Part shown: positions 5,768 through 59,809 of the stretch, piece after piece | Position numbering within the stretch: position 1 is the stretch's first letter | Layout: the number at the start of each line of letters is the position of its first letter | DNA from: Microbotryum silenes-acaulis | Lineage: Eukaryota > Basidiomycota > Microbotryomycetes > Microbotryales > Microbotryaceae | Reading direction: 5' to 3' | Assembly: GCA_003665825.1 (NCBI GenBank) | Contig: QPFY01000011.1 | Span: 434,001 to 498,000 of the forward strand | DNA length: 64,000 nt | Translations under genes and position numbers: made by a program | The notes under the pieces: model-generated | Database searches by the model: none | What the model saw: the letters and a program-made list of their open reading frames with translations, nothing else | What the model was told of the DNA's origin: nothing

Positions 5768-7527
5768 TCACAACTTCATCCCACCCGACGAAGCGCCGCC
5801 CAACCTCATCCCGATGCCCGGTGTGCCCAACTCACTCAGTCTTCTCATCGTACCCGGATAGCCCGGTCGCATCCACATGGTCGTCGAGCCCCCCATACCC
5901 AATACACCATTCCCACCCAATTCCTCATCCGACCCCTCGGAATCACCACTACTCGCATTGCCGATCCCCACACCGCCACCGACGGCCCCCATTGCTGCGC
6001 CTCCCATTCTCCTCGAAGCGAGTCGATTCACATCCATCATGACGTGGTGCATTTGCATCCTCAGACCGTGGGTTACCGCTCGGAGAGAGGCGATCTCTTC
6101 GCCTGTTCGGATTGAGTCGTGATGTATCGTTTGGGAGAGGCCGGCTTCGAGCGACGAGTGAGAGGATTGTAGGGAGCCTAGCTGGGATTGAAGCGAGGAT
6201 AGCTGCGTCGAGAGTGTAGTCGAAGGGGTGGCTAAGCCGGGTGAACTTAAACGTGAACCGACAGAAACCAACAGAGGAAGGGCTTCGAGCAATGGTGTCG
6301 AGTCGAAGCGTTCGGTGGACGAAGTCGCATCGACTTCTGTCGGTTCTGGAACGCTTGATGGTTCAGGGGCGACCCAAAATTCGCCCATACCTCTCCTGAC
6401 CCCTTCGAGCACTTCCCGCATGTCCCTCATGCCTTCTTCGAGCTTGCCAACTCGTTGCCGCAACCACCAGTTTTCCCCTTCGACGCGGTCGATGATGCCC
6501 TTTTGTTGATCGAGATAGGTCTTGATCGGTTCGTAGGGACAAGCGACGTCGAGGTGTTCGTCGGCCATCAGCGAGCGAGCGACCCGGCTTGAGCAGCCAT
6601 GGGCAGCATGCGGACATGGTATTGGGATCATAGGACAAGTTTCGAGGTGATGAGACGGTAGTGCTGATCGAAGGAGCATTGTCGAGCAATAATTGCAGTT
6701 GACCTCGGCCGAAGGACAGGTCAATCCGTGCGACTGAGGACGAATTTTAAAACGCCGACCGACGAGTTAGACCGACGAGCGTTCCAAATTTTGGGCAGGC
6801 GAAGGGCACTCACCGAGAGATGACTGGCGAGCAAATCTACGCGACATAGATCACATACGACCCATATCTCCTGGCCGTTCTCGTCAACATTCGCCGAATC
6901 CTCTTCGACGTTGCTGACGGTGACCTTGGCCTTGCCCTTCCCCTTGGGATCCGCAACGGTGGCGATCTCGCGCTCGTATCGACACTGGTCCTTGAGATGA
7001 ATAGACAACCAGCCCCTCTCACATTCGATATCGCATCCTTTGTCCGCGTGAGGACACTTGACGCTCAGTTCATCGACGAGTTGGTGCACGATGCGAGGCG
7101 CGTCGACCAACTCCTGCTGCAGCAAGGCCGAGCGGTCGATCGGGCACGTCGACGACAGCGAAAGGGCGCGGCTGATGCAGGGATAACAGAAGATGTGTTG
7201 GCACATCGGTGACATGACCGGGTGGATGAAGGGGTTGCTGGTGGACGACATAAACGCGAGGGGTAAGGTAAGCAATGTGGAACTGGATGACTGGCCCGTG
7301 CCAGTCAGACGGAAGGCGGGGTGACACTCACCGACATATGGCGCATTCGAGGGATGCGTTGACCTCGCCCACATAGTCGTATACGTTTTCGCGTTCCATC
7401 CTGACGCAACAAGGGTGACAAACCGGAGCAGAAGCGAAAGCAGATCGCGCAGAGGCGGGCCTCACGCGCCACTCGTACGCCTGCACACACCGGTCCGGCC
7501 GAGTCGAGATGCCGAGTCGGATTTCAT
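5768..7527 (-). CDS. RING finger / TRAF-type zinc-finger protein
   Basis: Four exons on the minus strand (7466-7527, 7332-7400, 6814-7237, 5768-6733) give 506 aa; phases 2, 2 and 0 close correctly. Residues 40-78 form a RING (CAIC ... MCQHIFCYPC ... CPID). TRAF-type Cys/His fingers follow (CPHADKGCDIEC ... HLKDQC, then CPSAEVNCNYC ... HHLETCP ... CPHAAHGC), then a coiled coil (about 235-280) and a Ser/Gly-rich tail. RING plus TRAF fingers suggests a cytoplasmic E3 ligase or adaptor, but no substrate can be inferred. The start in the first small exon was chosen because its frame joins the RING exon cleanly; the alternative is ATG at 7399 inside the second exon. It is not a classical TRAF because no MATH domain is visible. 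Confidence 0.8.
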
Positions 7528-7941
7528 GAGGCCGCCCAAAAACTGAACTCGACAAGCACTTCGGTGAGGCAATTAAAATGATGCTTTGATGCTTTGACCG
7601 CGAATACTAAATCACTCGAATCTACACAAAGCCATTACCGCTCATTACACTACTGCCGACATGATGCCCACTCTCGCGCAGTCTTATTTTCGCGACGGCA
7701 TCCCATATGAAAGAGTGAAGAGGGTGCAAATTTGTCAACATGGAGAAGCAGCTGCAACAATAAGAGGATTCGTCAGCTTGACGACTCCGGGTTAACCCAA
7801 GCCATTCCTGCAACGAACCTTCGTGGCCCATCGGGTCTCCGCGATGTGCCGGTGTCGCACGTGACCGCGGGACCTGCCCCAGCAACCTAATCTTCCACGC
7901 ACGCATTCTCAGCTCGTTCCTCCTCTCCGCTCCTACAGCTC
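7528..7941. other. Intergenic
   Basis: Lies between the 5' end of the RING/TRAF gene and the stop codon of the interrupted DUF4267-like gene. It should hold a promoter for the former and the 3' UTR of the latter. No gene recognised. Confidence 0.4.
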
Positions 7942-8272
7942 TCAACCTTGAAGCACTTTCCATCCAATCAGAGCTGTTACACCAGCTGCGACGCTACTCT
8001 GGATCGCATCGTTGACGGCCATCAGGGTTCCTCATTAGATGTCTAGATATCTATCTTAGCATATCTCGCTAAGATATAGATGACATCTTATCTAGGGGCC
8101 AAATATCTTAGATAGATAGATAAGACCCCGGGGGTTTCCTTAGATATCTTTAGATATCCTAACTTTTTTTATGTCTGGTACAGACTCCTGTTGCGCTGGA
8201 AGTTGTAGTTTCCACTAAGGAGGTTCGTGCTCCCTAGCGAGGTCACCAACTTTCCAATTGTGTTTGGCCCAA

Positions 8273-8631
8273 TGCCCATATTTGTGCCCCATGGCTTGGA
8301 ACGTCGACTTGTCGAACTACGAGTCCTCTTTTTTTACTCGATCTGGAAGCTCTGTCGCCGTCGCCGATTCTCGTCGGATCTTTTGGAACCGATCGCCGAA
8401 ACGGACTTCGAGGGGCTTCGAGCCTCTATTCAGGAGTCCAAGGGTCGCCTAGTGTCTCTGTAAGCCACCAAAGGGGGTTTTAGTGGGTATGGTTGATCCT
8501 GGTTCAGGGTCAATGAGTCCTACACTACTGGCTTCTGCCACTGTGCGTAACAGCATTCCCTCCGACTTTTCCGAAGATTTCTAGGTATTAATATAATTAT
8601 GCTGTTAATGAAGTCTATCAAAATAAAAAAA
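8273..8631 (+). mobile_element. 5'-truncated LINE copy inside the hAT derivative
   Basis: From about 8298 to the tail the DNA closely matches the 3' end of the LINE at 54.6-59.8 kb, including the last codons (ending ESKGRLVSL and stop at about 8461), the 3' UTR and the tail AAAATAAAAAAA. Direct repeats tggcccaa at 8265-8272 and 8632-8639 bracket it as a TSD. The first 25 nt after the left repeat do not match the LINE well and may be filler or diverged sequence. Unlike the big LINE, this 3' UTR has no inverted insertion. Confidence 0.8.
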
Positions 8632-8909
8632 TGGCCCAACCGCTGACCGCGGGTGAGGCCGGTGAGGCGGCACGGCTTGCCGACGAGTGCCGACGGGCCA
8701 ATTCAGTTCTCATTCTCATTCAAACGTCTTTGCTGCCAGAGGGTGCTTCATCAACTAATCGCATAGAGAAAGGAGGTGCAATTGCGACATTTGGGAACTT
8801 CACAATCTACCCGCCCCGGTCCTCTTCTTTCGTCGCACACTTGTACACTCGCACTCTCACACCTCGCCGAACGACTATAATCGATAGTCTTTGCGAAAGC
8901 AGTGCCAGT

Positions 8910-9125
8910 ATGGAGTCGGACCTCCCCACGGCTGAGGAGGAGCTTGTGAGTACGGAATACGCCAGCGACAAAGAGGCACAGACTTACTACTTTTGACTGA
9001 GAGCTGGCTCTGCAAATGATCCCTGGCAAGCTCGCTAGGTCAGCTGAGAAGAAGTAAAAGTCAAAGACGTCATGGCAGTCGTTCCCAGCGGAGGTGGACA
9101 TTTCGGACGACTCTGACACGGATTA
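8910..9125 (+). pseudogene. Remnant of hAT transposase N- and C-termini
   Basis: After an ATG the DNA encodes MESDLPTAEEELVSTEYAS, then AQTYYF, and after a stop LRAGSANDPWQAR. This parallels the start of the complete hAT transposase of the window (TTAEDLVATVFSTEAEA, YTELRSAGPEDRLQAR). About 100 nt further it ends with an acidic DISDDSDTD and stop, like the ELSDTDEESS end of that protein. So the middle of the transposase has been deleted. Alignment is by eye and identity is modest. Confidence 0.55.
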
Positions 9126-9822
9126 GCACAACGATCGGCATCAATGCATTCTCCCGCTTACTGAGCAATGATTCGTCTTCCCAGCACTTATCAATACAAG
9201 AGAATCGAAAAACAGTGAACAGAAAGCCAGCTTTGCCAGTTCATTCACATTTTGTGATACTTAAAATGTGGTACTGGCCACCCAACAGGCTCCTACGAGT
9301 CCCAATCGACCGCCTTCAAGCGAAGATATCTGGCATCTTATCTCCTAAGATATCTATCTATATCTCATCTTAACCCACTTAGATATCTATTAGATATCTA
9401 GGCATCTATCTAAGATATCTGACTAAGATGGGAGATAGATAGATAAGGGCCAGAGCCCAATTTTTTTAGATAGATATCTAATATCTGCGAGATTATCTTA
9501 TCTAATGGGGAACCCTGGCGGCCATGTCGCCGTGGTGATAGCTGAGGTACCCGATGCCCACGTCGAGCGCCTCGGTAAGCGCAACGAGTTTGACCGTCGT
9601 CCTGTACTCGGTTCTTCCCCGACGCGTGGCCAAGAGCATGACCCCAAAGACGATGTTGCGGACGCCGATGAGACGCGAGAGGTGTAGCGTTGACGAGGTG
9701 ATGGAGGTGAGGTTGAACGCGGCGCACGTCGCCTCCGGGAGGAAGGTCAATCCGATTCCGGGGCCGACCACCATCAGCGCGAACAGGTACGCCCACAGCG
9801 CTGAGCTAGTACGAGCGGCCAT

Positions 9823-10217
9823 TATTGGGTGTCTATGAGCGGTTGGTTGGTAGTTGATCAAAGGAGGTGTTTGAGGGACAACAGCGACTGTGTGAGCGAG
9901 ACGGAAGGCAGACTCCTTCCCGACGGATCCTGCAGGGCCGCGCTGCCAAGGCTAGCCAAGGCTCCCCTGAATGTCAAAATCGACCGTTCGATCCCGAAGC
10001 GGTCCGTGCGTCACGCGGGCGAGTTCGGCGATAATTGTCAGCGCGCCGCGGTGGGTGAGCACGCCATCCAACAACCGCCTTACTTAGGAACGCCAGATTG
10101 CACGGCCCTGCGAAACGCGCCTGGCCGACCTCGACGGGATTCGCTTCCGGCGCTTCTACTGCCACACCTTTCCTCCTTTCCATCCCTCCACACACCCCAA
10201 AACCTTTCTCACTAGAT
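9823..10217. promoter_or_regulatory. Divergent promoter region of the DUF4267-like gene and MET3
   Basis: 395 bp between two divergently read start codons. It includes a C/T-rich stretch just before the MET3 ATG and the 18-nt word GAAGCGGTCCGTGCGTCA. No sulfur-regulator site was identified with confidence. Confidence 0.5.
9996..10013 (+). promoter_or_regulatory. 18-nt promoter word shared with PLP2
   Basis: GAAGCGGTCCGTGCGTCA, identical to 37003-37020, about 205 nt before the MET3 ATG. Its core also occurs upstream of BRE1, SOG2 (reverse, one base shifted) and the RecQ-like gene. Confidence 0.45.
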
Positions 10218-12665
<2,448 letters not shown>

Positions 12666-42152: not shown

Positions 42153-44440
42153 TCATACTCTCCTCTGCTTAGCCCCCCATGTAGAATACCCTTCCGTCAC
42201 TGACTTGCCTGCCTCGATGAAAGCCTCGGCCACCCCGGAGTCCGCCAGCCGTGTGAGAGGGTCGCACTTATCCGCCTCCAACTCCTGCAAAGTCCGAAGC
42301 AGCTTTGCGTGTACTCGTCCGGCTTCCTCAGCGAGCCGTCGGTAGAGTTGAACGCGATCTTCGTGCTCGGCAGTGTTGTTGGGTATCGCTTGAAGTGGTG
42401 GAGGGAGCGACAATGACGACGGCGGCAGCGAGGGCGAAACTTCAGACACATAAGACGATGCTTGAGATGCGAGAGGAGCATGGTCGCTAGTGCAAAGATC
42501 CACGCGCCGGCGAATGACACGCGCGGCAAGCCACATGTGCTTGCACGGAAACATGTGGCGAACGAAATCCGGACAATCGCAAGTCGAGATCACTCTCGAG
42601 TCGGTGGGATTGAGTCCAACGATGTAGCTTGTCTCAATGAAGGTCGAGTCTTCGTCCTCCTGCTCGTCCTCTCCGAAAGACGTGACGTAGATCTAAAGAT
42701 TGGCAAAAAGAAGAAGAAAAAGTCGCCGAGGTCGAGTCAGCCAAAGTCTCGACCCCGAGACGCGAGAAAATCCTAAATTCAACTCACATCACCGTCGTCG
42801 TCCATCTCCGTGACCATATCGTTCGCTCGACTCCACTCAATTGATTGCGCGGTGTTCTGGCGCTGAGTCTCGGCCTTACTCGATCGCCGACGAACAAAGC
42901 CGGTGACGATGAGACTAATCTCTTGGCGGTATGCTGGCTCGGCGTCCATTGTGAGGGTGTGGATGAGCTGATCCGTCCGCTGTCGCTGCCCGCGGCCAAT
43001 GTAACGATACTTCAAGATCTTATGCCACGACTCGATGTAATTATTGGTGGTGATCGCGTGATACGTAACCTGTGAATCATCAGACAGAAGGGTATGAGCC
43101 AAGGGAACTATCTCGAGGCCAGCGCGCCGGACCGTAGGGATCGTCGCTTACCTTCACCCAGGCACGAGACCAGTTTTCCTTCTTCCTCACCCAATAACTA
43201 GTGATGTAATCGATCCAAACTTTTTGAGTCGTGCCGAACGCCTGAGTTATTCTTGCGAGCCGTTGCTCAAAGACGATGAGCGACTCCGCCTCTTGAAGAG
43301 CAAGAAACGTTCTGAAGAGCTCGGCAGCGAGTGCTTTCTTTCGGGCGGTGAGAGCTGAGGGTTTTTCGCCAGGTTGCTGAGGGCAAGACACCTGAATGAA
43401 GATACACAAGAGGACGTGGTCAAAAAGGCAGCACAGATGGACCCACGGCCTGCTTGACTTTCATTGCTCACCTTCTCAACTGATGCTTTGCGGACGGCCT
43501 TCAACATGTGCCATGTACACAATTGTATTTGCGGCTGAGTTGATGCATATGCAAATGCCAGTCGAACAGCAGTAGCTTCGGTGTCGGAGCAGTCCAAGAC
43601 AAACGTCTCCGGCGCGAACGACGGAACCGAGCTTCGCACCCATCGGAGCCAATCTATGATGGGATACCTGCAGTGTTACAGGTAGGGGATTCACATGAGC
43701 ACACAAAGCATACATCGGCAGTAGATCACTCCTGAGTGGGTGCTTAACACTACTGACCGAGTTTCATGAGGCGTCAACATCCACGCGACTGGAACACCTT
43801 TGCCGGCGCGCGAGTGCTTAACCACGAGCGAGAACAAGTAGACCTTTGCGTGTCGATCGTCCATGGCATAGCAGGTGTTGTGTTGAATCCATCATGACGA
43901 GACGTCCGCATTGCTGAAGCACTTGTGACTGCCATGTAGAACACAGGAACACCGCCCACGTCGGTCGGCCAGCGTCATCCCGGATATTCTCGCGAAACTC
44001 GGCGTGCCAACCATCGGCGCGCAAGCGCTCGATCCAGGCGATGACACTATCTCGAGCAGCGGCAGCAAGACGCGACTGGAAGAGGATTTGCTGTCGCACC
44101 TTGTTGTATACGTCCCGGTATTTGACGCGGAGTATTTCCGGTACGGTCGGTGATGAGCCAAGTTCGCCGATCTACGAAGGAAGAATTAAACAAGTCAGGG
44201 CCAGTGGATTGATAAATGCAATGGCTGATGTTTGGAAGCCTACTCACAGTCTCCGCCTCTTCTGCCGATAGTCGCATCATTTTCTTCAGCGTGCTCCATT
44301 CAAGACCCTTGGAAAGAGCTTCGGAAAGCCAAAGCTGAGCCGGGGCCGATAGTCGAGACCGAAGGAGGTAGTCGGACGAGTAAGGGTTATGATTTTTGTG
44401 GGGCGTCATCTTGATTTGGTACATTGTGGGGTCATCCCGG
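42153..44440 (-). pseudogene. Mutator-like (MULE) transposase, 5' incomplete, one frameshift
   Basis: Exons on the minus strand: about 44440-44248, 44171-43758, 43667-43472, 43391-43152, 43069-42788 and 42692-42153. Upstream helical region LWLSEALSKGLEWSTLKKMM; DDE region with TWAVFLCSTWQSQVLQQCG, MMDST, then in a shifted frame NTCYAMDDRHAKVYLFSLVVKH; CSDTEATAVRLAF; CTWHMLKAVRKASVEK; NNYIESWHKILKYRY; and a C-terminal SWIM finger CDCPDFVRHMFPCKH. Only the MDST/NTC point breaks the frame (near 43890: two bases missing or one extra); all other junctions close. The start is lost at the border with the TAGATA-rich DNA. No TIRs were identified. Confidence 0.75.
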
Positions 44441-44451
44441 GCATAAAAAAC

Positions 44452-44610
44452 GGTTATATCTATAGATCTGTCATCTACAGCAGAACAGATATATGAAAGA
44501 TAGATATCTAGTGGATATCTACGTAGATAAACGCCACTTGATAGATGATGACTAGATGTGTGGAGGCATGCATAGATGTGCGTGTATAGATATGACAGGG
44601 CGGACCCTTG
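44452..44610. repeat. TAGATA/TAGATATC-rich subterminal repeat, left side of hAT element
   Basis: Dense short words such as TCTATAGATC, AGATATCTAG and GTAGATA, matching in style the subterminal parts of the 8-9.5 kb element. Such arrays usually bind the hAT transposase. Confidence 0.6.
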
Positions 44611-44885
44611 TTCCCTTGTCCTCGACACAAAAGGCCTTTGCAGCCATGACAAGATCTCTCCAGCTGCCGCCAGAAAAACTCGACGAAGTGGCAGAATGGC
44701 AGCCGTGCCTTGTATTCTATTGACAGACGACGGAGAGCAAGTGCAAATGAGGGAAAGCTAGAGGACTCGGTTGAAAAATCTATGAAGGGGCAGAAACAGA
44801 GAAACAGAGAGAAAATATGTTGTTGAGGGTTTATTATGTACATGGGAGAAACGAAGATTTACTCTGTGGCATACTTGGGTAGCGC

Positions 44886-47575
44886 TCAAGACGATTCTTC
44901 GTCCGTGTCTGAGAGTTCCAGCTCCTCAATCGGCGAATTTTGCGAGAGCGAGGTCGATCGCGAGGATTCTCCAGTGACGTTGTGGCGCTGCCGCTTATTC
45001 GCTTTGTGGACTGCCGAAGAACTCTTCTTTGCCACGACACGCTTCGATGGAGCACGGAGCTTGCCTGCAAGAAAGATTATTGGGTCCTCAGTCGCTGCAA
45101 GTAGCTGGGGCTAGCATGACTCCTCTCATTTGAACTCACTTGCGATGATGGGTCGGGCATGACGAGCAAAGCCCTCGGGGGTGCCCCCGAAGATAGGAGC
45201 GGTCGGATTAGCCCAGCTACCGAGACACATCTTGGCGTTCAGAACTTCGGCAGAGGTGCTGTGCTGCATATAGTTGATCGTCCGGCGGCCGGTGGAGAAA
45301 GCGCGTTCCGCATCGCACGCAGTTGGTGGAATTGTGATGAAGTCAATTGCCATCTCGGCAAGAGCCTTCTGCCCTGGAATCGCACGTTGTGTCACCCAAT
45401 ACTTGATAGGGCACCCCTTGTAGGCGTCGTTCTTGTTCAGTCTGACGCATCCCCTAGCCCAGTACTGGAGGAAGGCATCTGGCTCATAGTAGTTGTGAGA
45501 GCCTTGTGTGTCACCTCCTTCATCACCATACAAATCGTGGTCGGAGCAAGCATCGGAATCAATCGGGGACGGAGGACCAGCTTCGGGGATGTCCTCATAG
45601 AGAGGAAGGTACACCTTCTTGTAGATTTCATGGAGCTTCTTCTGCTTCTCATTGATATCTGTTTCGGCCCAAGCAGTTCCAGGTCGCTGAAAGAATCGCA
45701 GATGGTGACGAGGATGAAAGAACATCGACCCAAATGCAGCAATCGAATCGTCGCCAACCTTCGAGTAGTAGTTGCCCAGAACAATCAAAGCGGACTTGGC
45801 TGCGATGCGCACCATGGGAGAAGCGGTTTGAGCCTTGTTGTCAAGCATGCCTTCAACTCGTTCGAACTCGGCGATGACATCCCAAGTGCGAGGCGTTGCA
45901 TCTTGGAACTGAATCGTCAGGGTCTTGAGGTATTCGCCAATGTCAAGGAGCTCTTTAACGATATCAAGTGCGTCATCAGGAAGGGCGAATTTGTCCACGA
46001 TGTTCGAGGGTGTGTCGTCGCGCGCCATATAGTAGTCGATGGCACTCGAGAACGGAACATGGCTCTGAAGGCAGAGGTGAATAGAGTTCCAACGCGTCTC
46101 GTTTTTGCGGGAAAGCTCCGTCGCCTTGGAATCGGGTCGGTCCTTGGCGGTGGCAACGACCGACTGCTGCCATCTGTGTTTGTCGGAGGATTTGACTCTC
46201 AGTCCCGAAACGTGTTGTGCAAAATCGGCGACCGTAGGAATGATGGTCATGCATTTTCGTCGAAGGATGGGTTGAATCTTGATGCCGACCGACTCGCCCC
46301 AATCCAAAGCCTCTCTCAAGCAAGTCTTCGAATGATTGTTCACCGTAAATTCGAATGCTGAAATGTCGTAGTCACCAGAGGCAGTCGCAATGGACAGAGC
46401 TTGAGCAATCTCGTCGTCGATCCTCTGATCTTCAGCATCCGAATCATCTTCGACGTTGGGATGACCGTCGAAAGCAGATATATGCTTGCCAGTCGTGTTC
46501 TTGCGCGCCCGAGGAGTAGGCGGACGAGCAGGGGCCATGGAAAAGGCAGCGTAAAGTGCGCCCATCACTAGCTGGAGAATGTGGGCGAAGCAGCGAACTC
46601 GCATCTCGGGTCCCCACCACGAGTCATTGAGGTTCTTGTACTCCACCGCCATCTTGTTGCAGTTCGAGGCGTTGTCCATCACGAGGGTTCGAACGAGATG
46701 CGAGATCTTGAACTCTTCGACGCATTTGGCATGAAGCGACGCTGCGAGCTCTTTCCCGCCGTGGCGACCTTTCGACTCGATGAACTTGAGTGTGTGACGA
46801 TGAACGACGCCATCTTGTTCATACACTACGACGACTCCGAGAACACTGATGCAGTTGGGAGCGGTCCAACCATCGATAACCAGATGAATCCCGCGATTTC
46901 GCTTGACAAGAAATTCGCCGAATTGAACCGACAGCTCCCTATGTAGATGAACGAGTAGCCTCTTGACGGTGTCGTGACTACCGAGGATAGCATTCACATT
47001 GGCGACGTGATAGGAGTAGGCGAGCCAGGTTTGAAGTTGGGGGTCTACGTGGGTGAACGCTTCCTTCGAGATTGCAACGTGAAGAACGATGGATAACATG
47101 AACAACGCATTGTCGAAGATTGCAGCAGAAAGCAATGGTTGCACGCTCTGAAAGTACAAGACAGAAAAATCTTTAGTGACCTGCTGTAACAGCCTGCAAA
47201 CATTATTTCAAGCGAACTAACCGTGTTCGCCCCTTCCCCCCTGGATGCCAGGGATTGTTTGATGCCCCTGTTCCAGTTCGATACGCCGTGTTGGTGTGCG
47301 GTCTCGAAGTCAACGGATTCGCAATGAGAGGCTGGACGAGTCTTGCACGTTGCTCGGATCTTCAATTTGCCATTCGATCGAAACACGACGACATCGAAAT
47401 GATCCCACTTTCCCGAGGTCCGGGAGAAAAGGAAGGCCCGAGCAACGTCGGCGCACCTCGCTTGCAATCGGTCTTCGGGGCCAGCAGACCGAAGCTCGGT
47501 GTAGAACACTTTTGCTTCCGCCTCCGTGCTGAAGACAGTGGCGACAAGATCTTCTGCGGTAGTAGGAGTAGCCAT
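44886..47575 (-). CDS. hAT-family transposase
   Basis: Three exons (47222-47575, 45140-47147, 44886-45064), 846 aa, phases 0 and 1, no internal stop. N-terminus MATPTTAEDLVATVFSTEAEA; an unusual Cys/His-poor N-terminal region; then the RNase H-like core with HLVIDGWTAPN, LVMDNASNCNKMA, RCFAHILQLVMGAL and ETRWNSIHLCLQ. The C-terminal dimerisation region is LAEMAIDFITIPPTACDAERAFSTGRR followed by LNAKMCLGSW. The last exon is basic then acidic (ELELSDTDEESS). hAT transposases excise and insert elements with 8-bp TSDs. An in-frame ATG at 47707 would add 44 residues. Reading frame and motifs suggest a potentially active or recently active enzyme. Confidence 0.9.
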
Positions 47576-47969
47576 GTTGTAGCAAGATGAGGAGTTTGGG
47601 GATTTATGAGCTAGAGAGGGAGAAGACGGGGAGGTACTAGAAAGGGGAGAAGTGAAACCGGCAGACGACCAGTGGCAATATGCGGACTCCAAAATCTTCT
47701 GGCTCATTTGCCCATTTCCCTTCAGGAGCTCAGGTCTCAGGCCTCATGCCTTCAAGATAGGCAATGTTTTGCTTCGCTTCCGAGATAGAAGCCGACCGAA
47801 CTAGTAGGGCACAACGGGCAGCCGGGAGGGCGGCCTCTGTCTCACCGCCACCGTTCGGAGCCAAGCCAATGACTTGATAAGGTCTTGGAAACTTAAGCGG
47901 ATATGCTTCTTGAATATGCTTGAACCCCTCTGACCATGGACAACCTGTCTCCTCAATGTGTATTCCTGG

Positions 47970-48107
47970 CAGATGCTTTAGATATCTGCGTAGTTACGTC
48001 CAAGCGTATCTGTCTATCTATGATCTATGGCCATATAGATAGATGAACGATAGTTATAGGAGGTGTAGATATAGATAGGCATCTATTTGATCTAATGCGA
48101 AGCCCTG
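47970..48107. repeat. TAGATA-rich subterminal repeat and right TIR of hAT element
   Basis: Runs of ATATAGATAGAT, AGATATAGATAGGCATCTAT and similar words end in the TIR TCTAATGCGAAGCCCTG at 48107. Confidence 0.65.
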
Positions 48108-48262
48108 AGATGGTGGCTCAGTCCTTGCATCAATTCTCAAAGAGCCGCGGCTCACTCACACATCCGATCGCCTCCAAGGACTGAAATGACCTCGTCCCCG
48201 GTAATCTGGTTGAGCGGGACGTCGTTGACCGAGATCACGAGTCGTGCGGTGCGGGATCAGCG
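48108..48262 (-). repeat. Copy of part of the RTA1-like gene (intron 1 / exon 2 / intron 2)
   Basis: On the minus strand about 155 bp match 52843-52998 at high identity, including the stretch AGATTACCGGGGACGAGGTC and the splice donor TGTGTGAGTGAGCC. The copy stops exactly at the hAT TIR. Translated as the RTA1 exon it reads LPGTRSFQSLEAIGC, against LPGTRSFQSLLAIGC in the complete gene. It is a duplicated fragment, not a gene. Confidence 0.75.
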
Positions 48263-49389
48263 ACCTTGCATTGATCGTGGCGTGTGCTTGAATTGGTGGT
48301 GATTGATATGCATGATTCGGCAGGGGCGTCGATCATGTCCTCGAAGTGCAGCAAGTGCTTGTCGAGGTGGGCCTTCACCGCCTTGCGGTCCATCTTCACC
48401 ACGGATTACGAGCCAGCGACAGGAACAGGACAACACCAAAAAGCGGTCTCTCAATTTTCGGTCTCCACATCCGCATTTGCGTCGTACTTGGTCCAAATAG
48501 TTCCCACACTGCCCGCTTTCGATAAATGGCACATGTTACGGTGGTCCAGCGGATCTAGCGTTTGCTAGATTCTGTCTTTGTACAAGACTAGCTGGAATTT
48601 ATGAATTGCAACTTAAGGATAAACCCAAAGGTGGTCTACGACGCAGAACCCATCCAGATCATCCCGATGTCCACGGTCAGCTGATCGAGTTCCGTTGAGG
48701 GTTGGAGCTTATCTGCGCGTCGTCCCGGGTTCGTCGATTGCTAAGCTCAACTAAGCCCTCCCTCTGGGAGGGGCTTAGGACTTACCGGCGCGCCTGGCCC
48801 AGTTGCCCTCCGAAATTTCAGGGCCATTTTGGGGTGGTTCTCTGTAGCGTGGCAAGTACTTACAATTATCCAAAACGCAGAGATGCTATTGATCTTCTAC
48901 TAGAAAAAATGGCCTATGCCGAACGGCAAGAGGATACCCCATCTGTAGGCGAAGCTATAATGATCTGAAGTGTGTAAATTTGGTCAATTTGGTCCCGAGT
49001 GGTCCGAGCGGCAGCACGCTGCTGCAGCCTCCGGCTTGCGCACTTCGGCGTGTGCGCATCGGTTTCTCTCCCGTCCCATTCCGCATCACTCGTCTTCTCG
49101 GTACTATGCTCTTCGCTTGTTCTCGGTGCAACACCGCGCTTATCTCAGAATGACGCGCAACCGCAGACGCTATGACTCGACGACTCGCCAGGATCGCCGC
49201 CGTCACGCGGATCTATCCGCTCGGTTTCGGCTTCACAAGCTCTCACTATGTCAATACCTCTCGTGGTATTTCAGCCCATCAACACAACACGATGGTGTTC
49301 ACAATTATAGGCCAAAGCTCTTCAACAGTAATTGGACCCAGCTCAAGCATGTACTTGATCTCATTATACAACTCAGTCTCCGACTCCAA
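48263..49389. other. Intergenic in the accessory region
   Basis: Short frames only. A minus-strand frame starting MDRKAVKAHLDKHLLHFEDM near 48.4 kb has a protein-like composition but no family I know; it could be another gene fragment. The remaining part shows nothing recognisable. Confidence 0.35.
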
Positions 49390-54595: not shown

Positions 54596-56049
54596 ATGGA
54601 CAACAACAACAACAACAACACCAACAACGCCAGCCCTGCTGCTATACCACTTCTTCGCCCTGACCCTCCCGATCCTCCCGGCCAAGCCCCCGCCACCACC
54701 ACCAAATCATACTCCGCCGCGGTCGGCGCCCGCTCCGCTGCGAAGCACGGCAACGCCACCGCCAACGCCTCGACTGCCGTCGCCGCCCATCCCCTGATGC
54801 ACAACATCGAGAACTGTGTCATCATCAACACCCCACCCTCAACCTCGGTCGAGCAAGTCCTCCTCGCGCTCGACAAACACTACCCTGCCCTTACCGGCGC
54901 AATGCCATGCGTCATCAAGGGTCAGCGCGGCCTCCGCTTTCCCAAGGCCGCCGATCTCGACGCCCTGGTTGCCAACGGCCTTACTGTTGGCAAGACTCTG
55001 TGCAAAGTCGAGAAGCTGTACAGCTCTACTAAAGGAGGTGTTGTACAATGCACCCTTACGGGCTTTTTCTCCGACCCCGAGGGCCTCCGCCTATTCGATG
55101 AGCAGATCGCTGCCTATGGCACGGTCCTCCGCCGTCGCATCCAATACATTGGAAAGACGAAACACATCTCTGGGGTGTACGACTTTATCCTTGCCCTTAA
55201 GGATGTAGATGTTTTGCCCCCTGCCTCACTTTCTATTGCTCGTGACGGTGTCACTGAGCGAATCCCACTGAGGATCACCGGTGGCATGCGCCACTGCGTC
55301 TTCTGCCGTTCCGCGGCTCACGTCCGTAAGGACTGCCCCGTCGCCCCGGCGTGCAAGTCCTGCGCGAGCACCTCGCACGCCACCCAGCACTGCCCGGGCC
55401 GTCACGCGTCAAGCCCCCAGGGTCCCCCCACGTCACGTGCCCCACGTCACGTGCCCCGCAAGCCTCCACCGTTACCACCGCCGCCCCCGCCGCCGGGTCC
55501 AAGTCGATCCCCGCGGCCTCCGCCCCCGACCGCACGACCAAAAAACGTCGAGTGGAACAGGATCTGGCTGCCCAGACTGAAGATCTGTCCAACAGGGCTC
55601 AGCCCGAATCTCTGTCGAAGACTGCCCGCCCCGAGTTCTCCTTCAATTTCCCTTCCAATACTGCCACTCAAACTGCCCCCCAGCCTGCCTCCAACCAGGG
55701 AACTGCCTCTTCCCTCGTTGAAAAATCCTCCGAGTCCCCCAGCTCAGAGACCACCTCTCCATCCCCAAGCCCTCCTCCGGCCACGCCAAAGTCGATCATA
55801 ACTCGATCCAAGTCGATTGCCGCCCTCTCCACGCCAGCCACTCGTGAAGCCCCTCCCACTGCGCCTGCCCTCGAAGCCTCCGAGCCGACCCCCGAGCCCT
55901 CTTCGCCCACGCCGTTGCTCTCAGCCGCGCCCAAAGCCCGACCCGATGACGCCGACGCTGACGACGAGGCCGACGAAGAAGCCAAAGACCAAGAAGCACC
56001 TCCCAAGGACGTGGAAGACGCTATGGACCAAGATGATGAGCACAACTAA
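54596..56049 (+). pseudogene. LINE ORF1 (gag-like, CCHC), frameshifted
   Basis: Asn/Ala/Pro-rich start (MDNNNNNNTNNASPAA), an RRM-like middle (NCVIINTPPSTSVEQVLLAL), and two CX2CX4HX4C zinc knuckles (CVFCRSAAHVRKDC, CKSCASTSHATQHC) near 55290-55400. Immediately after them a 14-bp unit is duplicated in tandem (55426-55439 and 55440-55453), shifting the frame. In the new frame the protein continues TTKKRRVEQDLAAQTEDLSN to an acidic end (DDEADEEAKDQE, DQDDEHN) and stop. ORF2 starts inside the last codons. ORF1 proteins bind the LINE RNA. Confidence 0.8.
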
Positions 56050-59000
56050 GATCCCAAACGTGTCTTTTGTTGCTGCCAACGTGCAGTCAATCAATGAAGA
56101 CCGTAAGCGTGCCTCTCTTTTCTCCAATCTCCGCTCCCATAACGCCGACGTCTTTCTCCTGAGCGAAACTGGCCGACCTTCCCCCGAAAGGGTGGCCCAG
56201 TGGACTCAGGAGTGCCAAGACTTAAAGCTCTCCGCTCTCTTCACTCCTTTCAACAACACTGCCATACTCTGGAAGAGCGACTCCGTGGTCATTACTATTG
56301 ATCCCGAGTCGCCTCCCAACACTCTTCGTGCCTCTTTTTCTTTCCCGGACCGAGTCACCGACGCCACCTTTCGTGTGGGTGATTCAAAGGTCCGGGTTGT
56401 ATCAATATACGCGCCTTCATCCGACAAGCCAGACAAAAAGCGCTTCCTCTCACATCTCAGCACCGCCCTCCGACAAGTCGTGCGTGACGAACCTTCGCCG
56501 CCTGCGCTCCTAGTCGGGGGGGACTGGAATTGTGTTGAGTCCCAACCCCTCGATTCGGAGAACCAAAACGGAACGAATTATGGGGGTCAGGAGATGCGCG
56601 ACCTTGCCACGGCCAACAATCTTTTCGACGCCTATCGGCTCCGCCATCCCAAAGGACGAGCCACGACGAATCGCTCAGCGCCCGGCACGTGCCGTCGCCT
56701 TGACCGCATCTATGTCTCGCCTGATTGGGTCGACCTCTTCCATGATCACAAAATTTGGGCTCCTGTCCTCAAATCGACGCACTCAATGGTGGTGGCACGG
56801 TTTCAAATCCCGGACGCAATCGACATCGGTCCGAGCAAATTCAAGCTGGGTTTGCACGTGATCGAGGGCGACGCGACCTGCGAGTACCTCACTTCCATTG
56901 TCCGCACCCTTTACAACGAAGCCCTCCTCCAGACGCCCAACGATCCACCAGCAGCTTGGACGTCCACCAAACACCGCCTGCTGCCCGAGCTGCAGGCTCT
57001 GGCCCGGACGTTCGCTCGGTTCCGACGTGGAGGGTCGGAGCAAGAGAGGGCTGACCACTCGCGCTACGGCGCGGCGCGGCGGTCCCGCCTCGACCCATCT
57101 CTGGCGGGTCCCTCTTCCATCTTCATCCGCCTGCGCAAAGTGCGAGCATCCGACCTCATCCCTTCGCTCACGGTCAACGATGTTGTTCATTCCGACCCTG
57201 ATTCGATGCTTGGAGCGGCCAGCGACTACTTCGAGCGGGTCTATGAGGCCAGGGCCTGACGGCCTCCCGGTTGAGTTCTATCGCGCTACGTGGCCGGCCA
57301 CTGGCCCGATTCTTCGAGACGTCATCAACTCGATCCCCACCGAGGCCCGTCAGCCTGGACCTCTTCCCCGCAACACCGCCCACATCCATCTCATCCACAA
57401 ACGCGGCGAGAGGGATCAGCTCTCGAACAAACGCCCCATATCGCTCATCAATGCGGACGAGCGCATCATCTCGCAAGCCCACAACCAGCGCCTCGCTCCC
57501 TTGCTCGAGTCCCTGATCGGCCCAACCCAACGTGGCTTTGTTCCGAACCGTTCGATCGGCACGAACATCGCTGAGGTCCAGTGTCTCATGGACCCTGGAC
57601 TTCCGTGCTCAACACCCGTGTCCGGCATGCTAGCGGTGATGGACTTTGAAAAGGCTTACGATCGTCTTTCCCACGCGTACCTTGATGCAGTCCTCTGCGC
57701 CGTTGGCCTCGGCCCCAAAGCCCGCCAATGGTACCGAGCGACCTACACCAACCAATCCGCCTCGATCTTCCTCAACGGTTGGCTCTCTGCCGCTTTCGAC
57801 ATCCTGTCGGGCGTTCGGTAAGGTGATCCTCTGGCTCCGTCTCTCTTCGTTCTGGCGATCGAAGGTTTTGCCTGTCAGATTCGATTGAGAGTCAAGGGCA
57901 TCGAGATTGCGGGCCTCCAAAACATTCGAGAACTCCTCTTTGCCGACGACGCTTGCTGCGCACTCCACAACCTCTCGGACCTCGACCACCTCAATCGGGC
58001 GATCGAGCTTTACGAACGGGCAAGTGCCAGCAAGCTCAGCAACGCCAAATCTTTCCTCTACCCCCTCGGAGCTTTTCGGGATCGGCCGATCGCCCCAGAT
58101 CTCGGGACCTGGCGTCTCAGCGATTCGCAGTTTCGCTACCTTGGTATTCAGGTCGGGGTGGAGATCGCCGAGGATGCGGGCTGGGAAGATGTCAAGGCCT
58201 CGACCATCGCTCGGATACGCTCAATTCCGATGTACGATCTCCCATATGCAGCCAAGTGTTCGATCATCAACATCTACTGCTACACAAAGATCCTGTACTA
58301 CAGCCGATTCCTCCCCGCCCCCAAGAGCGTTGTCAAGGAGATCGAGGAGGCCGTCATGCTCGCCATTCACGGTCGAGCTTCGGATGGTACTCAGCGACGT
58401 CCGAAGGTCTCCCGGTCGCGCCTCTGCACCCCTCTCGATCACGGCGGCTTCGGCTTGATTGATCTGCCTCGGCGTCTAGCGATCGATCACGCGAAGTGGG
58501 TCTTCCAGCTCCGGGCCCCGGACGGCTGCTTCACACGCCACCTCTTCGACATTCGCATTCGCCTCCAGGCACCGAACCAACCAACCCCTTTCACCTTGTC
58601 CAGACCGGCCCCCAACCAGCATCGTCGCCCTTGGATCTGGATCTGGTGGGCATACTTTTGCCATCCTCCCCCAAAGTGGGACCATGCGGTGAGAAAGACG
58701 AGAAAACTTCTTCCTGCACGTTGGGTCCGATACTTCGAAGCCTGGGCGTCGGTGACCACGCTCAATCCCCCGGAGCTCTCCAAGAGCCAGAACCTCGAGC
58801 AATGGGCGACGCACGTACTCTACTTCCCAGCGGGCCACGGAATACAACTTTCGGTAAACCCGACGCTTTTTCGAGGGCCCGATGGCGAGGTGATGACCCC
58901 GTCTTCGTTTGTGAACGCGTCCAAACGCCACCAAGTCTTCATCTTCCCTCCTATCTTCCCCAAGGGACACCAGAAGGTATTCGATCTGCCTGAGCAACGT

Positions 59001-59459
59001 TGGAACGCTTGGTGGAAGGCTTTGCGCAAGGTTCGCCGGGTTCACTCGGACGCCGAGGATACCGGCCACCTTCTCTCCCTGGGGTCCCTCCATCCGGGCA
59101 GCCAAGTCGCCTCCCCAACCAGCCCTCACCCCAACAATCGATCTGCCTCCTGTGTGATGTGCCTCTCGGAAGCACCCGAGTGCCTGGCCCACCTCGCGGT
59201 CGGCTGCCCATTTGCCCGGCGTCTCTGGTCTGCTCTGTCCCCGACCCCCCACCCAGTCTTTGTGGACTTTGTATGTCCGGTCGTGTCTCGCTCGGAACGT
59301 CGCCTTGTCGAACTACGAGTCCTCTTCTTTCACTCGATCTGGAAGCTCTGTCGCCGTCGCCGATTCTCGTCGGATCTTTTGGAACCGATCACCGAAACGG
59401 ACTTCGAGGGGCTTCGAGCCTCTATTCAGGAGTCCAAGGGTCGCCTAGTGTCTCTGTAA
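56036..59459 (+). pseudogene. LINE ORF2 (endonuclease/reverse transcriptase), two lesions
   Basis: ATG at 56036 overlaps the ORF1 stop by 14 nt. The APE-type endonuclease reads VAANVQSINEDRKRASLF, DVFLLSETG, LLVGGDWNCVES, CRRLDRIYVSPDW and KSTHSMVVARF. At about 57243-57250 sequence between FERVYEA and GPDGLPVEFYR is missing and the frame changes. The reverse transcriptase then follows: NKRPISLINADERI, GFVPNRSIGTNI, VMDFEKAYDRL, SGVR, where the next Gln codon has become TAA (57819-57821), then GDPLAPSLF and LLFADDACC (the catalytic FADD box). The C-terminal zinc motif is CVMCLSEAPECLAHLAVGCPFARRLW. The stop is at 59457-59459. Confidence 0.85.
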
Positions 59460-59566
59460 GCCACCAAAGGGGGTTTTAGTGGGTATGGTTGATCCTGGTT
59501 CAGGGTCAATGAGTCCTACACTACTGGCTTCTGCCAGTGTGCGTAACAGCATTCCCTCCGACTTTT

Positions 59567-59741
59567 ATTTATTTGATAGACTTCATTAACAGCATAATTA
59601 TATTAATACCTAGAAATCTTCGGAAAAGTCGGAGGGAATGCTGTTACGCACACTGGCAGAAGCCAGTAGTGTAGGACTCATTGACCCTGAACCAGGATCA
59701 ACCATACCCACTAAAACCCCCTTTGGTGGCTTACAGAGACA
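59567..59741 (-). mobile_element. Nested inverted 175-bp LINE copy in the LINE 3' UTR
   Basis: An inverted copy of the last 175 bp or so of the same LINE (from TGTCTCTGTAAG to its tail) sits inside the 3' UTR. The TSD cgactttt is at 59559-59566 and 59742-59749. The insertion makes a 118-bp inverted repeat (59449-59566 with 59624-59741) and a second, shorter one between the loop and the host 3' end. Confidence 0.85.
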
Positions 59742-59809
59742 CGACTTTTCCGAAGATTTCTAGGTATTAATATAATTATGCTGTTAATGAAGTCTATCAA
59801 ATAAAAAAA

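Follow-up and report, generated by a model that had tools for sequence, protein, structure and literature searches.

The hAT superfamily of transposons is defined by an 8-bp target duplication, terminal inverted repeats of 5–27 bp and a length of less than 4 kb, with a transposase as a feature of the autonomous members only (PMC3517528). A described element of this type is Mar of Drosophila. As described in that source, Mar shares with the element reported here its 8-bp target duplications, the absence of a transposase, the presence of several copies, a base composition AT-richer than the surroundings, and short inverted ends beginning CAG(G/A)GG or CAGGG (PMC3517528). The two differ in length (610 bp in Mar, 1,160 bp here when a LINE insertion is discounted), in sequence, and in that the host of the present element is fungal. 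In the genus Microbotryum, 438 TIR, 39 MITE and 392 LINE copies are counted in M. lychnidis-dioicae (PMC4469406), which is the same genus and the same classes of element as here. That paper has 286 consensus sequences; the term hAT is absent from its main text. Our literature search brought up, among the matches listed, no paper that evidently dealt with this hAT family in Microbotryum.

The window analysed is a stretch of 64,000 nucleotides from Microbotryum silenes-acaulis, C11:434001-498000 of an assembly of 29.85 Mb in 88 contigs, which was also the assembly used for searches of the organism's own genome. It holds a DUF4267-like gene split by a hAT-type element (Table 1). By the definition above, the element conforms in its 8-bp duplication (7/8), its 18-bp repeats and its length of 1,495 bp, and a transposase is absent. 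A sequence-only reading of the locus had proposed a non-autonomous hAT-type insertion in this gene, and the inverted ends, the target copies and the transposase-free open frames bear it out. We put the probability at roughly 0.92 that a hAT element was inserted in trans at codon 102, truncating the gene, and that a LINE fragment is nested in the element.

Table 1. Features of the interrupted gene and of the insertion, in window positions.
Feature	Position	Strand	Remarks
5' piece of DUF4267-like gene	9518..9822	-	101 codons + 2 nt; a target-site copy makes up the last 8 nt
3' piece of DUF4267-like gene	7942..8022	-	26 residues + stop; holds the other target-site copy
Target-site copy ACGGCCAT	8015..8022		7/8 to the copy at 9518-9525
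Target-site copy GCGGCCAT	9518..9525		7/8 to the copy at 8015-8022
Non-autonomous hAT-type element	8023..9517		Inverted ends; copies elsewhere in the genome; 8-bp duplications in the family
Left terminal inverted repeat	8023..8040	+	End CAGGGTTCCTCATTAGAT
Right terminal inverted repeat	9500..9517	-	End, reversed, CAGGGTTCCCCATTAGAT; in-frame TAG at 9502-9504 (gene sense)
LINE 3' end, 5'-truncated and A-tailed, inside the hAT element	8300..8631	+	hAT runs through the site elsewhere; identity to the window LINE

The interrupted gene and its relatives

The gene lies on the minus strand at 7942-9822, with its start codon at 9820-9822 and its stop at 7942-7944, and the 1,495-bp element interrupts it at 8023-9517; the coordinates first proposed match the sequence. 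Joined via either target copy, the flanks make 378 nt, or 126 codons including the stop (125 residues), without an internal stop. The closure of the frame across the target site at 126 codons and the lack of further stops in the separated pieces had both been proposed, and the relative P0001 (below) is likewise 125 aa long. Since exact closure is expected of any insertion with a target duplication, it adds nothing beyond the homology. The 24 residues that had been assigned to 7942-8022 are the unique ones; the segment in fact encodes 26 residues and the stop, the additional MA repeating the target copy.

The relatives were sought in a protein collection clustered at 90%, with one representative per cluster. 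A search with the 101-residue 5' piece retrieved an intact protein, 125 residues long, from Microbotryum silenes-dioicae (P0001, BQ5605_C010g06116) at 96% identity and P0002 at 62%, and a profile built from these two added a third relative, P0048. The 5' piece matches residues 1-101 of P0001 at 97/101. Residues 102-125 correspond to the unique part of the 3' piece, 24 residues long, and agree with it at 21/24 when counted by eye (BLASTP of the 3' piece gives 23/25). The two pieces abut on P0001 with neither gap nor overlap, and all three relatives found have a recognisable C-terminal segment. Judged by these alignments, both pieces belong to one gene, which is intact in M. silenes-dioicae. At the protein level that relative is free of the insertion, the empty site being known only from its protein. 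The sequence-only reading had staked its case on the 24 residues resembling intact relatives and on the element being absent from this place in some relative. The first is seen in the match to P0001 and the second, at the protein level, in one relative. The group with which it had proposed to compare the gene, related yeasts, should be the anther-smut fungi.

The family name calls for some care. PF14087 (DUF4267) is present as a precomputed annotation on P0001, P0002 and P0048. It scores 26.2 bits (E 8e-6) on the 5' piece, below the curated cut-off of 27.8 bits; in the search of the genome the gene scores 27.4 bits and, counting frame neighbours, is listed as over the cut-off at 27.8. The intact relatives score 26.9, 27.6 and 32.9 bits. 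Since these scores also lie near the cut-off, the name DUF4267 is a borderline profile match on sound homology. By that match and by homology to its members, the window gene belongs to the small membrane-protein family of PF14087, from which it differs in being without the last 24 residues in frame. DUF4267 was not found in any paper of the literature searched, and we know of no function for the family.

We asked whether the assembly holds another copy. PF14087, at E up to 0.1, returned this locus and no further DUF4267 match, and P0001, at E up to 1, returned just the two gene pieces. A weak match of the 5' piece on C26 (35%, E 0.017, one stop) was rejected as a paralogue, as it was returned by neither of these searches; it leaves a distant paralogue conceivable. 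The earlier suggestion of a natural loss is supported to the extent that neither PF14087 nor P0001 turned up a second copy in the assembly. The segment 7400-7990, downstream of the gene, occurs once in the assembly. The neighbours are a minus-strand one at 5768-7374, with RING and TRAF zinc-finger frames, and a plus-strand APS-kinase/ATP-sulfurylase exon at 11866-12639.

The gene might have been dispensable, or decaying already, before the element arrived. It differs from the M. silenes-dioicae protein at 7/125 residues, and a BRE1-like exon of the window, matching a Microbotryum saponariae protein at 542/548, differs at only 6/548, a rough yardstick only because the species is a different one. 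The BRE1 match in itself assigns the window to a Microbotryum anther smut (Basidiomycota, by the lineage of M. silenes-dioicae). Prior decay nevertheless seems unlikely to us, given that both gene pieces remain open and that the changes relative to P0001 do not differ significantly between the 3' piece (3/24) and the 5' piece (4/101; Fisher p 0.13).

The hAT-type element, its family and a possible source of transposase

Including the LINE fragment nested in it, the element measures 1,495 bp; once the fragment and one TGG are taken out, 1,160 bp remain. Its terminal inverted repeats of 18 bp are identical at 17/18 positions. The pattern of the inverted ends, allowing up to 3 mismatches, has 3 matches in the window against 0.03 expected: both ends of the element, exactly, and, with 3 mismatches, an end belonging to a related hAT at 48090-48107. 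Between the target copies there is a single-base difference, as had been claimed, and agreement at 7/8 or better was found in 89 of 200,000 random pairs of 8-mers from the window. No Pfam match was found in the two longest open frames of the element (121 and 122 aa) or in the 78-aa frame of the LINE piece, and PF05699 has no match inside the element. Having no recognised transposase, the element is taken to be non-autonomous. One open hAT frame, at 8631-8996, is 121 aa long (129 without the LINE), with counterparts of 130 on C26 and 117 on C7 and shorter ones in other copies. Rfam, run over 7900-9900, gave only mir-7637, at 22.2 bits against a gathering threshold of 88 bits (E 0.31), which we take as chance.

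An element in a gene could also be spliced out in the manner of an introner, so that a near-full-length protein would still be made. Among 90 GT-AG pairs tested near both junctions, 8 close the frame, one of them with its GT in the inverted end and its AG 24 nt into the 3' piece, for a protein of 121 residues. The donor in that case is GTTCCC, far from the GTRNGT usual in fungi. The putative intron would be about 1.5 kb, and its removal would take with it residues from the segment common to the relatives. The family of the element is, moreover, flanked by hAT-type target copies. We regard splicing as highly improbable, and truncation of the gene by the hAT element remains the preferred reading.

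Searched against its own genome, the element has at least 50 matches, 40 of the 190 candidates having been scored. These include the element itself and 19 pieces, at no fewer than 9 other places, that cover its outer parts; at least 30 cover only element positions 272-611, at 96-99%. The outer parts are those of the hAT family. Over ungapped columns, eight other copies of this family, some of them partial and the C10 copy omitted, share 91.7-98.1% identity with the window copy, and BLAST identities of the family's pieces to the element, gaps counted, are 84-98%. In seven copies with both ends, the target copies agree at 8/8 in two and at 7/8 in three (window, C26 and C2); the 8-bp flanks of the remaining two are out of register, at 3/8 and 2/8. 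Some copies carry insertions of their own. A 613-bp stretch, C10:41944-42556 (L053, L042), interrupts another copy of the family. Its ends, CAAGGGTCCGCATTAGAT, are of one more related hAT-like type, for which there are many genome matches among those listed. The C2 and C3 copies (L032, L033) share a similar GC-rich sequence, CTAGGGCTCGGGGGG, near one end, which is probably a shared further insertion.

A transposase might be supplied from elsewhere in the genome. PF05699 is found in 41 places, 14 of them in stop-free open frames of at least 600 aa, and the window holds one of these at 45126-47099. Two ends CAGGGCTTCGCATTAGAT enclose at least 6 of the 14 long frames, and these ends agree with those of the element at 15/18. 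In six elements with ends of the CAGGGCTTCGCATTAGAT type, the target copies agree at 8/8 in three and at 4/8, 2/8 and 1/8 in the others. The three with perfect target copies have transposase frames of 392-415 aa, and the only long-frame copy in this comparison is the one at 2/8, so that for none can completeness and recent movement be demonstrated together. The 20 exact copies of the element's own ends are all more than 10 kb away from every one of the 41 PF05699 matches. Mobilisation would have been by the related hAT family or by a family no longer present. The window copy of the related family, at 45126-48107, has a transposase frame of 657 aa and one end CAGGGCTTCGCATTAGAT at 48090-48107. 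Neither the window pattern nor a motif scan over 43501-49000 found a matching second end, and the copy is possibly a truncated one.

The nested LINE fragment

The element had been read as a single hAT insertion. The hAT part holds, and the whole is composite, with a LINE 3' fragment at 8300-8631 that had been missed. At the nested site the hAT sequence is uninterrupted in 8 of the 9 other loci given, and the ninth (L004) covers the right side only. The nested piece is the last 332 bp of a LINE, flanked by a putative target duplication of only 3 bp, TGG (8297-8299 and 8632-8634), as judged from the uninterrupted hAT copies. Counted from 8294, the insert is identical at 271/277 positions to the end of the long LINE copy in the window. 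The six bases before the nested piece, GCTTGG, resemble the LINE's GCTCGG, and because the first six bases of the match from 8294 fit the hAT as well, the 5' junction has a short microhomology.

All 20 LINE copies fetched have an A-rich tail and all 20 reach further 5' than the nested piece; of five that were translated, three run on upstream in a frame of 448-509 aa. A SINE was considered as the identity of the piece and rejected on these two points, the 5' extension of every copy and the entry of 3/5 translated copies into a long LINE-like frame. The nested piece is a 5'-truncated LINE insertion. It may have landed after the hAT element reached the gene or have travelled there with it; both fit.

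The long LINE of the window has open frames at 54596-59459, with an endonuclease (PF03372) at 40.8 bits, over the cut-off, and a zf-RVT match at 19 bits, below 27.5; no RT-domain match was found in the three frames scanned. Over its extent, 54596-59809, the first frame is without a Pfam match and has CCHC-like cysteines by eye. Its 3' end carries its own terminal ~180 bp inverted (59564-59742 reversed), and after this the tail comes a second time in direct orientation. We liken the nested LINE to fungal LINEs, presumably those of the Tad-like clade, on account of the PF03372 endonuclease of the window LINE, the A-rich tail and the 5' truncation. It differs from them in being reduced to its last 332 bp and in a putative target duplication of only 3 bp.

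Effect on the protein and history of the insertion

Reading of the gene would begin at its own start codon, run on into the inverted end and terminate there. In the gene's own frame the end supplies the TAG at 9502-9504, for a predicted protein of 106 residues ending in MAARVPH. This premature stop had been overlooked. The predicted structure of P0001 (mean pLDDT 68.9 in the best of five models and 56-60 in the rest, from 3 sequences) has helices at 71-96 and, last, at 102-124, and the break falls between them. In this model the truncated protein would have lost the last predicted helix. We consider the insertion a natural truncation, with a probable loss, or at least a reduction, of function.

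A transposase acting in trans would have inserted the element at codon 102, duplicating 8 bp, and the LINE fragment would have entered the element after its arrival at the gene or before its move there. The alanine at residue 102 of the relative corresponds to the target copy adjoining the 5' piece, so that, judging from the protein, it is probably the other copy that has changed. The divergence of the target copies and the residue changes fit an element that inserted once the lineage had separated from that of M. silenes-dioicae. A RIP-like mutation of the target copy was considered and rejected: in Microbotryum the RIP-like target is described as TCG/CGA (PMC10502011), and the changed base lies outside that context. 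The RIP-like index is -0.50 in the element, -0.33 in each of the two gene pieces and -0.32 in the whole window; it is positive at 9823-10200 (0.27) and in the BRE1 exon (0.12).

If the insertion were polymorphic and still mobile, hAT excision could switch the gene off and on. The inverted ends preserved at 17/18, the presence in this genome of long hAT transposase frames flanked by similar ends, and the intact gene in a relative would all suit such a switch. We find it improbable even so. The ends of the element differ at 3/18 positions from those of the transposase-bearing family, no PF05699 match is near ends identical to its own, a LINE fragment now sits inside the element, and one base already separates the target copies. 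Excision of hAT elements, furthermore, usually leaves footprints. Slightly less probable again is a recent, polymorphic insertion mobilisable by the related hAT family, which would mean strains in which a conserved membrane protein is naturally truncated, perhaps reversibly.

Apart from the nesting and the truncation of the gene, this is a routine transposon hit, an ordinary and well-preserved insertional truncation of a kind that is common. What it provides is a clear nested insertion, a scrap of LINE in a hAT element in a gene, and a natural truncation in a gene family of no known function that can be compared with its intact relatives.
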